Origin: a virus
Length of the DNA stretch: 20,318 bases
IMG/VR virus record: IMGVR_UViG_3300008448_000866
Coordinates: 1-20,318 of that record
Direction: 5' to 3' (one strand)
Shown: positions 6,149 through 13,878 of the stretch, piece by piece
How positions within the stretch are numbered: position 1 is the first letter of the stretch
How the letters are laid out: every line of letters begins with the position of its first letter
Translations under genes and position numbers: made by a program
The notes under the pieces: model-generated
Database searches by the model: none
Told to the model about the DNA's origin: nothing
Seen by the model: the letters and a program-made list of their open reading frames with translations, nothing else

Positions 6149-8257
6149 TTAATTTGTTCCTGGATATCTGCCATGTAAAGAGGATTGATCATAAGTAGCT
6201 GTATTAGCTTGGCCGAATCCTTTAGCTATATCTTTTAAAGGCATTCCTGCTCTGATTGCTTTAGCCACTGAGATTGGATCAGATGACTCTAAGCCATTAT
6301 CTGCAACGAATCTACCTTTCTCTCTCTTGCGGAAATAGACTCTGCGTTCCCAATAGTGTTTACAATTTACCCCACCATGATAAAGCCATACTGAATAGGT
6401 AGCGCCATTATGGCCCATGTTAGGATTAAGGCTATTGCTATCCGTTTCCATTTTAGTTAAATCTTCATAACGGTAAACATAGCCAGCCTTAGCTGCGCTT
6501 ACCATCTGTCTGCAAAACTTGCGGCTATTACCACTTAAATTCTTTGAATAAGAATAACGAATCTTATAAAGTCCGCTATCCATTTCAGATGGCTTATCAG
6601 GATCGGCATAGCTGCGAACTGATGCAAGATTAACAGGCTCAGCTTCGATTAATTCCCATTCATCCTCATCTACTATCTCACCTTTATCGGATAAGAATTC
6701 ACACCACCAATTCTCATCATCTTCTGTGAAGATTGGAGGCTTCTCTTGTGGATCAGTAGATAATTCAGTCTTATATCTATTGTAGATAGCAGTAGCCCAG
6801 TCTCTCCCTGCATCACCTCCCCATAATTGCCATGCTACTCTGCCTGCTGATGGGAAGCCATCCTCTCCCTGATTCCATCCTGTAGCTTCCTTATCTACTG
6901 CATGTCTTTCAAAGTAGCTGTACATGCGTGTGATGGTCTCATAAGATAGATTACGCTTATTGCTAATGTCGCGTGCTCTTGCTACTCCTACTTCAGTACC
7001 TCCTCTGCCGTATTCCTCTCTCCACTTTAAACCTAACTCAGCCTCTGCGGCCATCTCATTAGTAGGCTCAAATGACTCAGGGATTTCTAAATTAGTCTTT
7101 TTTTTTTGAGCGCTTAGTTGAGTTGTTGCAGTTTGTGCAACAGTTGTAGTAGTGATTTCTTCACCGAAAATATCATTAGACTCAATGTATAAATCAGCAA
7201 CAATGCCCATGCCTTTAAATATCTCTTCAAGGCTATCTGTTATAATTTGTTGGTAAGGCTCAATAATGTTTCTATTGAAGATGCGGTAAGCGCTCTTCAT
7301 TTCATCAGCGTTACTACCTAAGCCGCCTGCATCTCTAATACCAAAAAGTAGAGGTGAAGTTACTCTGTGAGCTGCTAAGATATTCTCTCTTGACTGCACG
7401 CTTAACTCTTGCCATTGCTTATCAGCATCACTCATAGGCACTAAGTCTAAACGCGGTGCTCTATCAGCTGACTCATTGAAAGTAAATACTACCTTACCTG
7501 CTTTCTTAGCACCCACCATAGTTTCCCAATTCCTTCTAATAGCCATCTGCTCTTCAGGATCAGGAATGCCGTTATTCATGTGCAAGAAATAGCTTGGCGC
7601 CATTCCATTGCTTAAGAAAGCTCTATAAAATTCGCTAATATCGCGAGTAATTTCAATGTAGTTAATAGCACTGTAGTAATCAGGCTTAGGATAGTAAGCG
7701 CTGCCTGGTGTCATAACTCCAACGAATAGCACTTGAGAAGGCTCATCTGCTTTCGTTGTTGGATTGTACATCGGGATAAACACAGGAATGTTTTTCTTCT
7801 TACGTGTGTCGCTCCAATCTTTAGAGTAGTAGATGCCCGGTATAATATCTTCATCATTCGCCACAGCTAATCTGCAATTCTCATAAGGCAGATGGTTAAT
7901 CTTAGCAATGGTGCTTCTATCTACGCTCCAAATCACTTCTAAGTAGTATCCTCCCTGCATCTTAGCATCCAATGCTATTGGTCTGCGAATAGTGTTAAGC
8001 TTTAATCTATCTATCTCACGCTGAGCAGCAGGATTGTTACTCTTAATTTCCTTCCCTGCTATCATAAATGAAATGCTCATGGTTAGAGCAGAGTGCACAG
8101 GAGAGGCATAGTATAAATCAATGAGATAATTACTAAACAAGTTAGCCTCGCCTAAAGTTACCCATCCTTTAGGTGTCTCTTTCTCGGTAGCCTCTTGTGG
8201 CATTGCTGCTCCAAGATTCACTAACATTGGTGCTGAGGTCTGTGCTATATTATCCAT
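6149..8257 (-). CDS. Portal protein fused to two C-terminal domains
   Basis: Residues 1 to about 385 form a portal core: an N-terminal arm, helices and strands (SALTMSISFMIAGKEI, IDRLKLNTIRRPIALDAKMQ), the stem-type segment EITRDISEFYRAFLSNGMAP, and a clip-to-crown part (VTSPLLFGIRDAGGLGSNAD). A Thr/Gln-rich linker follows, then a domain with RMYSYFERHAVDKEATGW and VAWQLWGGDAGRDWATA (residues 443-490) known from the ends of prohead proteases and other head proteins, and a last domain ending in GGVNCKHYWERRVYF (around 625-640) like the Cys/His tail of MuF-type minor head proteins. At 702 aa it is far longer than a bare portal. An A10 run lies at the core-linker junction. It forms the packaging vertex ring. 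Confidence 0.85.
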   Translation of the reverse strand: MDNIAQTSAPMLVNLGAAMPQEATEKETPKGWVTLGEANLFSNYLIDLYYASPVHSALTMSISFMIAGKEIKSNNPAAQREIDRLKLNTIRRPIALDAKMQGGYYLEVIWSVDRSTIAKINHLPYENCRLAVANDEDIIPGIYYSKDWSDTRKKKNIPVFIPMYNPTTKADEPSQVLFVGVMTPGSAYYPKPDYYSAINYIEITRDISEFYRAFLSNGMAPSYFLHMNNGIPDPEEQMAIRRNWETMVGAKKAGKVVFTFNESADRAPRLDLVPMSDADKQWQELSVQSRENILAAHRVTSPLLFGIRDAGGLGSNADEMKSAYRIFNRNIIEPYQQIITDSLEEIFKGMGIVADLYIESNDIFGEEITTTTVAQTATTQLSAQKKKTNLEIPESFEPTNEMAAEAELGLKWREEYGRGGTEVGVARARDISNKRNLSYETITRMYSYFERHAVDKEATGWNQGEDGFPSAGRVAWQLWGGDAGRDWATAIYNRYKTELSTDPQEKPPIFTEDDENWWCEFLSDKGEIVDEDEWELIEAEPVNLASVRSYADPDKPSEMDSGLYKIRYSYSKNLSGNSRKFCRQMVSAAKAGYVYRYEDLTKMETDSNSLNPNMGHNGATYSVWLYHGGVNCKHYWERRVYFRKREKGRFVADNGLESSDPISVAKAIRAGMPLKDIAKGFGQANTATYDQSSLHGRYPGTN

Positions 8258-8684: not shown

Positions 8685-9233
8685 TTACAATGTACCTGCT
8701 ACTACGGTAACAGTTGCGAAGTCTTCAAATGGAGTATCTCCAGCGTCTTGGTCAAGCAAGTATGCCTTATCTTTCTCCTCGCCTGTGAAGGTCACGGTGT
8801 AACCTACCATGTCGCCTTTAGCAGTACCTGTTTGAGTAGTGAATGCAGTAACCTCAACACCATCTTTGTAACCACACATCCAAATGTTATCGTTATTGTC
8901 TTGAACGAATAATACGTTACGGCCTTTAGCGATGTTTTGAAGTTGTAGTGAACGTGCAGCAGTCATTCCATGGAATGAAGCTACGATAGTTTGAGTGTAG
9001 TATACAGTGCCATTTTCAATAGAGATTGTAGCCTCTTCAGTAAATGATCCTGTGTGCTTAGGTAGTTCAAATTCGTAAACTGAACCTGTTGCAAGAGCAG
9101 TAACTAAGTTACTTGTTCCATCAATAGTAGCAGTATTAGCAAATGTAGCGTAAGAACCAAGGTAGATTGCTTTAATCCCACCAATCGATTCTTTGCACTG
9201 AATCTGGAGTCCAGCGGTAGTTAGACAGCTCAT
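8685..9233 (-). CDS. Probable major tail tube protein
   Basis: I start the gene at ATG 9233 (MSCLTTAGLQIQCKESIGGI, 182 aa) with an A-rich leader (CAAAAAAAAATTTACACACG). The frame is open to ATG 9302, but that part would encode a Lys-rich, non-conserved leader and runs through an RNA hairpin. The body alternates strands and turns, and the C-terminal half (RNVLFVQDNNDNIWMCGYKD, then GTAKGDMVGYTVTFTGEEKD) has the pattern I associate with Bacteroidetes phage tail tube proteins. With a tape measure protein and no sheath gene in view, this suits a siphovirus tail. It is unusual that the gene lies next to the capsid gene and away from the tape measure gene. Confidence 0.65.
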   Translation of the reverse strand: MSCLTTAGLQIQCKESIGGIKAIYLGSYATFANTATIDGTSNLVTALATGSVYEFELPKHTGSFTEEATISIENGTVYYTQTIVASFHGMTAARSLQLQNIAKGRNVLFVQDNNDNIWMCGYKDGVEVTAFTTQTGTAKGDMVGYTVTFTGEEKDKAYLLDQDAGDTPFEDFATVTVVAGTL

Positions 9234-9269
9234 ATCGTGTGTAAATTTTTTTTTGTTATTTTTTAAACT

Positions 9270-9285
9270 ATTCTTTGCAAAGAAT
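9270..9285. repeat. 16-bp perfect palindrome in the tail tube leader
   Basis: ATTCTTTGCAAAGAAT reads the same on both strands. Its right half (9279-9285 on the plus strand) is also part of the downstream arm of the larger hairpin at 9279-9312, so in RNA the two structures exclude each other. It could be a protein-binding site on DNA or a competing RNA fold. Followed on the minus strand by A-rich rather than T-rich sequence, it is not a classical terminator by itself. Confidence 0.6.
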
Positions 9286-9312
9286 GGGCGGCTCTTAGCC
9301 AACCCACTCTTT
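9279..9312 (-). terminator. Strong RNA hairpin after the major capsid gene (attenuating terminator or processing stem)
   Basis: In the transcript, AAAGAGUGGG (9312-9303) pairs with CCCAUUCUUU (9288-9279) over 10 pairs with one G-U, and an inner GGCU-AAG-AGCC stem-loop stacks inside across a small bulge. The hairpin starts 16 bases after the tandem TAA stops of the capsid gene and ends in a UUCUUU stretch. It probably reduces transcription into the tail tube and portal genes or protects the abundant capsid message. It lacks a long uninterrupted U tract, so complete termination is unlikely and downstream genes would still be read. Confidence 0.6.
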
Positions 9313-11640: not shown

Positions 11641-13878
11641 TTATAGATAAGATTGATCAATAATCTTTTGACGTGCTTCTAATGCGTTAGCTACGTTGCC
11701 TGCTAACACATAAGTCTCTACTGTACCTGGGCCATTAGGATTAAACTGCCCTCCGCTAAAGTCAATAGCCGGTGCATTGGCTTGAGTGGTGCTATCAGCA
11801 TTACCTCCCTGATTCATTGACGTATCAGGACTTGTTCCACCGAATTGAGTCTTAGCAATCTTAGCCACATTAGCAAATCCCATAACACCCACCGCAACAG
11901 CTTGCGCTATCTTAACTGATGTTGGAACTGTCTCAGGTGAGTTAAGTGCTTTAACAATGGCTGAATAAGTGTCTATTAAAGACATTGCGATATTAAGAGC
12001 CTTGTTTACGTTGAACTGTCTCTTAGCAGTCTTTTCAGTGCGTGCAGTGAAGCTGTCATTAAGCGCTGCTAATGCTGCGAATCCTTGAGATACAGCTGCT
12101 ACTTTCATCTCTTGTAGAGCAATAGTATCTGCTGTTTCTTTATCTCTCCATTTCTTTTTAATAGCATCTTCTTCTGCTAATTGAGCATCTAAAAATACTT
12201 TGGTATCTATACCTCTTAAATCAGCTTCAGCTATTAAAGCATCATATTTATCTTTATTAATCTTAAGCTCTTTATCTTTTTCACTAAGTAATCTTAATTC
12301 ATTCTCTTTAGCTTGTTCAGCAGCTGCATCACTTATAGCTTTATACTTTTGTTTGAATTCTTCTTGAATAGCTAAATCAGCTGCTACTTGTTTATCATAT
12401 TCAATTTTCGCGTATTTATCTCTGATTGCTTGCTCTTCTTCTTTATGAAATTGAAGTAATGCTGCTGTTTCTTCTGCTGATTTTTTAGCCCTTTTGTATG
12501 TGTCTACTTCTAATTTTTGTCTTTCATGGAGTAAGAATAGTTCCTTATCTAAATCACTTAAGTTACGTCTATCCCATTCAGCTAATTCTTTTTTAATGGC
12601 TAATAATTCATCGGCTAATTTCTTTGCTTCTGCTTCACGTTCTGCTTTTCTACGTGCAGCTTCTTCGTCTTTTTTAGCTTGCTCTTCTGCTGTAATAGTA
12701 TTGTTCCATACTTCAACACCTTTAGCTTTAATAATTTGTAAATCTTTTTCAGATTGAGATATTAACTTTTCTTGTGTAGCTACTTTTTCACGAGCATTTC
12801 TCAAATCAGCGCGAGCATATTTAGCAGCGTCGGATGTATCTCCAGCATATTGCTGTGCATATTCTGCTGCTTTAGCTAATTCCCAATTTAATTTATCTTG
12901 TTGCTTTTTTTGTTCAGCAATAGCTAATTCTATTTCTTGAGCTTTACTAACATACTGTTGAGTTGCTTTTATTTTTGCTTGCTGTAACTCAACATCTTTA
13001 TTGTCTTCTGCTACAATATCTTGTGCTATCGAATGGCCTTCAGCCAATGTAGCATTTATTTTAGCTTGTCTTTCTGCTCTTGAATCTTCTAATGATGCGC
13101 GAGTCTCAGCTATAGCAGCTTGTTCTCCTTCTAATAATGCCAATTTATAAGCTGCTGCAAATTGTTTTTCTTTAGCATTTAAAACATCTAATTCAGCTCC
13201 ATAAATTTCTCCTGCACTGGCTTTAGAAGATTTAAGTAAAGTAACATTACGCTCTAATACTTTTGTCTGACGGGATAATAAATCTACTTGCTGTTGAAGT
13301 GATTTAATCATTCCGCTTTTATTACCTACTAAAGCTTCTAATTCTTTCCAATAAACAATAACTCCTGTAATGGCCGCAGCTAAGAAGAAAATAGGATTAG
13401 CCTTAATAGCTTGACCTAAACCCTTTAATGCGTTTTTTCCTGCTGTTAATAAGTCTCCAAATCCCTTGCTAATATCTTCAGGTTTTAATCTACCTAAATT
13501 ACCAGCTACTAAATTTACGGACTGTGCTAATCCTTCAAAGTCAAGATTTCTAATCTGACTTCCCATCATTCCAAATGAATTGCTTAATCCTTCTACAGCA
13601 GGCCCTGTATTTCCTTTAACAGCATCGGCAGCATCATTCATTCTATCCTTAAGCTCTCCCATCTTTTGAGATAGCTCAACGAATTTCTTTGTGCCTGGAT
13701 CGTACTTATCTTGCTGCTTCTTTAATTCAGCATATTGCTGCTTTAAAGTCTTAGTTGACTTCTCTACTTGGTTAGTTGAGTCGTCTACTTTCTTAAGCTC
13801 TTTATTAATCTCTTCTAATCCTGCGAAAGTTCCATCGTCATTAAAGAGGAGCTTTAATATCATTTCTTGTGCTGCCAT
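11641..13878 (-). CDS. Tape measure protein
   Basis: At 745 aa this is the typical tape measure: an N-terminal coiled coil (LEEINKELKKVDDSTNQVEK), a Gly/Asn-rich stretch, a hydrophobic segment at about residues 155-180 (ANPIFFLAAAITGVIVYWKE), then several hundred residues of Ala/Lys/Glu/Gln coiled coil, a second small hydrophobic region (INAMS/AVAVGVMGFANVA type) and a Gly/Asn linker before VETYVLAGNVANALEARQKI. It sets tail length and helps DNA cross the inner membrane. Using the common rule of about 1.5 angstrom per residue, the tail would be roughly 110 nm. Its ATG shares one base with the stop of the 65-aa gene. Confidence 0.85.
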   Translation of the reverse strand: MAAQEMILKLLFNDDGTFAGLEEINKELKKVDDSTNQVEKSTKTLKQQYAELKKQQDKYDPGTKKFVELSQKMGELKDRMNDAADAVKGNTGPAVEGLSNSFGMMGSQIRNLDFEGLAQSVNLVAGNLGRLKPEDISKGFGDLLTAGKNALKGLGQAIKANPIFFLAAAITGVIVYWKELEALVGNKSGMIKSLQQQVDLLSRQTKVLERNVTLLKSSKASAGEIYGAELDVLNAKEKQFAAAYKLALLEGEQAAIAETRASLEDSRAERQAKINATLAEGHSIAQDIVAEDNKDVELQQAKIKATQQYVSKAQEIELAIAEQKKQQDKLNWELAKAAEYAQQYAGDTSDAAKYARADLRNAREKVATQEKLISQSEKDLQIIKAKGVEVWNNTITAEEQAKKDEEAARRKAEREAEAKKLADELLAIKKELAEWDRRNLSDLDKELFLLHERQKLEVDTYKRAKKSAEETAALLQFHKEEEQAIRDKYAKIEYDKQVAADLAIQEEFKQKYKAISDAAAEQAKENELRLLSEKDKELKINKDKYDALIAEADLRGIDTKVFLDAQLAEEDAIKKKWRDKETADTIALQEMKVAAVSQGFAALAALNDSFTARTEKTAKRQFNVNKALNIAMSLIDTYSAIVKALNSPETVPTSVKIAQAVAVGVMGFANVAKIAKTQFGGTSPDTSMNQGGNADSTTQANAPAIDFSGGQFNPNGPGTVETYVLAGNVANALEARQKIIDQSYL

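Follow-up and report, generated by a model that had tools for sequence, protein, structure and literature searches.

The portal gene of an uncultured virus carries ten consecutive A in its mRNA, between the region encoding the portal core and the region encoding a C-terminal extension. Runs of ten to twelve A (A10 to A12) are kept at this boundary across a large and diverse family of related phages. The run is probably a programmed slip site similar to that of Thermus thermophilus dnaX, on which RNA polymerase would realign so that both a bare portal and a portal fusion are made from one gene. That two products arise through slippage of some kind is very likely, and RNA polymerase is likely its main cause. 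These results support the original prediction, which interpreted the run as a slip site that may set the ratio of short portal to long fusion.

The A run and the portal gene

The window is the whole stretch of DNA that was analysed, namely positions 1 to 20,318 (20,318 nt) of IMG/VR record IMGVR_UViG_3300008448_000866. Its relevant features are as follows.

6149-8257, minus strand: portal gene (ORF; phrog_33693); 702-aa 0-frame product composed of core, linker, A10 and extension domains B and C
7178-8257, minus strand: portal core, about residues 1-360 (PF04860 at 94-345, TIGR01540 at 163-346)
7109-7177, minus strand: Thr/Gln linker, residues 361-383 (codon comparisons)
7098-7107, minus strand: predicted A10 slippery run, CAA AAA AAA AAG, codons 384-387 spanning 7097-7108
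7092-7094, minus strand: TAA stop of the frame entered by an added A or a -1 ribosomal shift; 388 aa, ending in QKKKD
7087-7089, minus strand: TAG stop of the frame entered by loss of an A or a +1 ribosomal shift; 389 aa, ending in QKKRLI
6797-7075, minus strand: extension domain B (residues 395-487), which is mobile among head genes and absent in many close relatives
6152-6796, minus strand: extension domain C, residues 488-702, also the C-terminus of the portal of Nonlabens phage P12024S
10891-11535, minus strand: XkdF-like prohead protease of the window phage, lacking both domain B and an A run (PF14550, E 3e-19)

The ten-A run itself was confirmed: the plus strand at 7098-7107 reads TTTTTTTTTT (T10), which gives ten A in the minus-strand ORF 6149-8257. 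The run begins in codon 384, where CAA AAA AAA AAG encodes Q384 and K385-K387. By homology of its core, including homology to the annotated P12024S portal, the gene is an HK97/PBSX-type phage portal gene. The supporting matches are to Pfam Phage_portal PF04860 (E 5e-8) and TIGR01540 (E 2e-18), both below the curated cut-offs, and to phrog_33693 (E 6e-74), which covers residues 26-384; from the HMM matches the core ends near residue 346-360, ahead of the run.

A slip in either direction ends translation soon after the run, at QKKKD* with one A more and at QKKRLI* with one A fewer, as had been foreseen. The predicted masses are 43.6 kDa and 43.7 kDa, respectively, and 79.3 kDa for the 0-frame product. 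The short product is thus close to a bare portal in size as proposed, and the proposed length of 386-388 residues was off by one or two.

Synonymous-codon resampling with the codons of this phage gave a probability of 0.24 for at least ten A in a row anywhere in the gene and of 0.12 at the site of the run. As chance occurrence in this one gene is not small, the significance of the run lies in its conservation and not in its rarity. No other run of at least nine A was found among 16 longer genes of the window. An A9 is located at 9246-9254 (minus strand) near the 5' end of ORF 8685-9302; if this ORF truly starts at an internal ATG (MSCLTTAG...), its A9 is untranslated leader.

Conservation of the run among relatives

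A first scan of IMG/VR was performed with portal peptide patterns that exclude the run, and the best 80 loci (71-100% identity) were compared. Every locus that reaches the site reads exactly [C/G]AA AAA AAA AAG, while the adjacent codons vary synonymously and the residue ahead of KKK switches between Gln and Glu. The sole exception, L060, is a contig that ends at the run. Scans with ever more distant members widened the family to 41% core identity. Each scan returned the best 80 matches and may favour in-frame fusions, though out-of-frame copies would score as two pieces.

Among the matches listed, 184 distinct ORFs with the core end carry at least ten A, and 182 of these are represented in loci retrieved independently of the A10 pattern. 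All 182 in-family genes among these matches have the run at the domain boundary (A10 in 157, A11 in 23 and A12 in two) and none has an interrupted run, which agrees with the expectation that A9 or longer would be kept in relatives despite the option of AAG. Of the ORFs that lack the run, six stop at a contig end or shortly ahead of one (L060, L362, L481, L439, L441 and L531), and another four are chimeric or broken (L435, L436, L132 and L514, the last with an adapter-like end). Genuine portal fusions to a C-terminal extension without the run were found in three remote lineages, namely L287, L450 and Nonlabens phage P12024S. Relatives that have the fusion and an interrupted run, named in advance as evidence against a slip site, are therefore missing within the family, but fusions without any run do exist outside it. 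The run is thus a clade trait and not a requirement of the fusion, and a ring made entirely of fusion protein must be viable somewhere. In these run-less lineages the phages evidently either rely on the fusion by itself or process it.

In a tree of the core, 17 run-bearing representatives are placed apart from P12024S and L287. Since L450 forms a long branch of unsure placement, the tree neither supports nor rules out a single origin of the run. Of 17 longer related contigs (29-38 kb), 12 contain no second A10 on either strand. The relatives with the run are all metagenome contigs of uncultured phages; solely the Nonlabens relative points to a Bacteroidota host, and a search by portal alignment found no relatives in cellular genomes.

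Several contigs show irregularities of their own. L435, L436, L437, L438 and L444, from the 33000081xx samples, are short contigs with deletions or frame breaks beside the A run; in L444 an A11 is joined to GAATGGGAG. These breaks may stem from faulty assembly or may be true deletions at the run. The portal ORF of L514:4437 ends in the Illumina-adapter-like TAGATCGGAATAGAGTCGTGTAGGG, an assembly artefact in the IMG/VR contig. In L456, L457, L459 and L460 the portal ORF ends in AAA AAA AAA TAA, an A9 abutting the stop codon, where slippage would alter the C-terminus.

For the codon test, clustering at 95% left 42 representatives, whose cores are pairwise at least 41% identical. All of them have AAA at the two central codons of the run, whereas each of the 57 conserved degenerate core columns varies in its codon over this set, and the lysine codons of the family are divided about 50:50 between AAA and AAG. 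Q, E, L or I precedes the run, in each case with a codon that ends in A. The codon phase also differs between clades, which use xAA AAA AAA AAG, (T/C/A)TA AAA AAA AAA G or xAA AAA AAA AAA G, besides the A12 genes; in every phase the extension stays in the 0 frame, with one doubtful exception (L444). This variable preceding residue with its A-ending codon, together with the shifting phase, indicates that the conserved feature is a run of at least ten A and not a codon string. KKK is invariant as residues too, and its conservation as a protein motif weakens the codon argument, which nevertheless stands.

In the window clade, stops occur in both shifted frames within 11 nt of the run. Across the family, the stop beyond KKK is reached after a median of one codon (maximum 17) with an added A and of two codons (maximum 22) with a missing A. 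By themselves such paired stops are weak evidence and arise readily by chance, since in these genes both are reached within 20 nt from 18% of positions. Two features expected of programmed slippage are both present, namely a coding run of at least nine A or T that is kept beyond synonymous freedom, and a long 0-frame product with near stops in both other frames.

Domain exchange around the run and a second site

The regions on both sides of the run are exchanged between relatives. On the upstream side lies a short Thr/Gln linker or else one of several domains of ~80 residues (SVSDVTYNGAQI... or SSDMAAIIAIAGQV...), which replaces or extends this linker; on the downstream side comes domain C, with or without a domain B ahead of it. 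The run holds its boundary position while the upstream domain type and the presence of domain B change. Its predicted placement at the exact junction between core and extension applies to the window clade, with a Thr/Gln linker of ~25 residues, but not to the many relatives with a ~80-residue insert, in which the extension is nevertheless bounded by the run.

Domain B is a widespread mobile head-gene domain. In Roseobacter phage CRP-811 (L369) and Synechococcus phage S-CBS1 (L370), it is the N-terminal part of a separate gene directly after the portal gene; the run thus sits where other phages end their portal. In the haloarchaeal viruses HRTV-28 (L535) and HRTV-4 (L536), domain B lies inside portal-MuF fusions without the run, and a search with the L287 protease retrieved small stand-alone domain-B genes, also without the run, from three metagenome-assembled bacterial genomes (L532-L534). 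Foldseek comparison of a model of the extension with viral models (BFVD) placed domain B on prohead proteases, portals and other proteins, and no structural match to this model was found in the PDB, where sequence searches were empty as well. The extension model had a pLDDT of 57.9 overall and ~55-93 over residues 1-110, and is good for domain B only; an AlphaFold2 model of the full 702-aa protein (pLDDT 35.5) was discarded.

Domain C was considered as a Mu gpF / SPP1 gp7 minor head protein and this assignment was rejected, as there was no Pfam hit and a profile comparison with the HRTV-28 and HRTV-4 fusions gave no match. The original prediction had also linked the run to a minor head protein; domain C is not detectably MuF-like, and that designation was itself inferential.

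The run also occurs in a second head gene. In ten contigs, the same A10 with the same downstream bases is located between an XkdF-like prohead protease (Peptidase_S78_2) and domain B (L287 at 12513-13412, minus strand, L289, L291, L302, L303, L325, L330, L335, L342 and L362). L287-type phages carry the run and domain B on the protease gene instead, and in L325 an additional linker precedes the A10 and the run is retained. These loci agree on the run by construction, as they were fetched by the A10 pattern, but its location in the protease gene at the joint with domain B is not by construction. The retrieved loci include 106 distinct proteases that lack domain B; in 104 of these no A run reaches nine, and in none of the 106 does one reach ten. 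Stand-alone or N-terminal domain-B genes are likewise without a run.

Candidate mechanisms and comparison with known systems

In the preferred mechanism, RNA polymerase would realign on A10 to A12, so that part of the portal mRNA has one or more A too many or too few. Unslipped mRNA, or mRNA shifted by a multiple of three, would give the 79.3-kDa portal-B-C fusion, and slipped mRNA would run into a stop a few codons on and give a 43.6-kDa portal of ordinary size. One gene could then supply a mix of bare and extended subunits for the 12-mer ring; alternatively, a few extended subunits may carry domains B and C into the procapsid. Judged by homology, the short product is a whole portal, which makes either role a natural reading. 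SPP1 gp7 offers a point of reference, since it reaches the procapsid through binding to the portal (PMC6316719).

The closest known counterpart is dnaX of T. thermophilus (tau/gamma), where, in the accounts cited here, RNA polymerase slips on A9, stops follow in both non-zero frames and the short product amounts to ~50% (PMC5009743, PMC1088944). Both genes have a long 0-frame product, an intragenic A run and stops in both other frames. The short dnaX product is functional by itself (PMC5009743, PMC1088944), and here the short product is a predicted portal. The Thermus gene encodes a replicase subunit, whereas the present run of A10 to A12 lies in a phage head gene with a modular, exchanged extension and a predicted pair of products.

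The same two products could be made by the ribosome, through a -1 frameshift on A_AAA_AAG or A_AAA_AAA of the E. coli dnaX type or through sliding on iterated AAA, a route we consider rather unlikely. The dnaX heptamer A_AAA_AAG is indeed part of xAA AAA AAA AAG, and a -1 shift there meets a stop after one further codon (KKKD*), like in E. coli dnaX; E. coli ribosomes are moreover known to slide on K3 encoded by 9-13 A, robustly at A11 (PMC4363877). A heptamer of the form X_XXY_YYZ with an early stop is accordingly present, as A_AAA_AAG with GAC TAA in the window clade and as A_AAA_AAA elsewhere. Yet seven A suffice for such a heptamer, while at least ten are kept, plus an A-ending codon ahead; A_AAA_AAA stands in a different phase in other clades; and the other shifted frame keeps its stops as well. 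Both stimulators of -1 frameshifting, a downstream stem-loop and an upstream Shine-Dalgarno-like element, were sought. Over 45 representatives no conserved downstream stem-loop was detected (z-scores between -1.6 and +0.4, median energy percentile 0.28), nor was a Shine-Dalgarno-like element conserved, the best match to AGGAGG being 2-4 of 6. The gene thus resembles E. coli dnaX in the heptamer of one clade and the stop one codon past the shift, but differs in the missing stimulators, the run that is longer than needed and the other phase in other clades. The lack of both elements is as expected of polymerase slippage. A match to phage T7-type RNA polymerase (PF00940) was not found in 17 related contigs, but the control set gave none either, so this negative carries little weight.

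It is improbable that there is no recoding at all and that the [QE]KKK motif or the local DNA is kept for another reason, such as a protease cleavage site or a recombination joint, with the run being incidental. The KKK residues are indeed invariant, and the exchange of domains on both sides would suit a recombination joint, but protein function cannot account for the missing AAG at the first two lysines given the 50:50 usage, a recombination joint needs no stops in both frames, and the clades differ in flanking bases and codon phase. Least credible, to the point of being nearly dismissed, is a DNA phase-variation (contingency) tract, in which replication slippage toggles the extension within the phage population. 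Homopolymers are indeed hypermutable, and the gain or loss of a single base would turn the extension off, but all 182 run genes have an in-frame length (A10, A11 or A12 with compensating codons) apart from L444. Out-of-frame alleles in the population, which mark a contingency locus, were thus seen in this doubtful case only; its contig carries a deletion beside the run and comes from a series of samples in which several ORFs are broken.

Polymerase slippage at the portal run would also differ from the recoding described in phage structural genes. In T3/T7 gene 10, the Lactobacillus A2 capsid, Listeria PSA, SPP1 gp17.1* and proteins with Ig-like domains, a fraction of subunits receives a C-terminal add-on (PMC5009743, PMC6316719). 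There, a ribosomal shift adds the domain, whereas here a shift would remove it, would occur at an A run and would concern a portal or prohead protease subunit. The 'Pormufvirus' HRTV-28 and HRTV-4 likewise combine the portal, domain B and a further C-terminal region in one ORF; they lack the A run, and domain C of the window has no detectable similarity to their MuF part. The portal of Nonlabens phage P12024S/L shares core and domain C in one ORF (34% identity), but has no A run, linker domain or domain B.

As the original prediction had presumed, our literature search found no description of slippage in a portal gene, nor in a prohead protease gene, which does not prove its absence. With respect to T. 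thermophilus dnaX, Baranov et al. (PMC1088944) pointed out that recoding that shortens a product is hard to detect comparatively, as there is no new frame to test. Here, synonymous-site conservation over a large and diverse phage family exposes such a candidate in a structural gene. The chances are about even that a broader reading applies across this tailed-phage group, in which a mobile A10 to A12 transcriptional slip site forms a 'detachable joint' between head proteins (the portal and the XkdF-like protease) and exchangeable C-terminal domains, each protein being made bare and extended in a ratio set by polymerase slippage. If slippage at the portal run is confirmed, the annotation of such portals as a single product would be incomplete, and these phages would offer a readily testable system for slippage by the polymerases of their hosts. 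It would also mean a portal ring of mixed composition made by slippage, or cargo targeted to the portal, and a simple route by which phages bolt optional domains on their head proteins.
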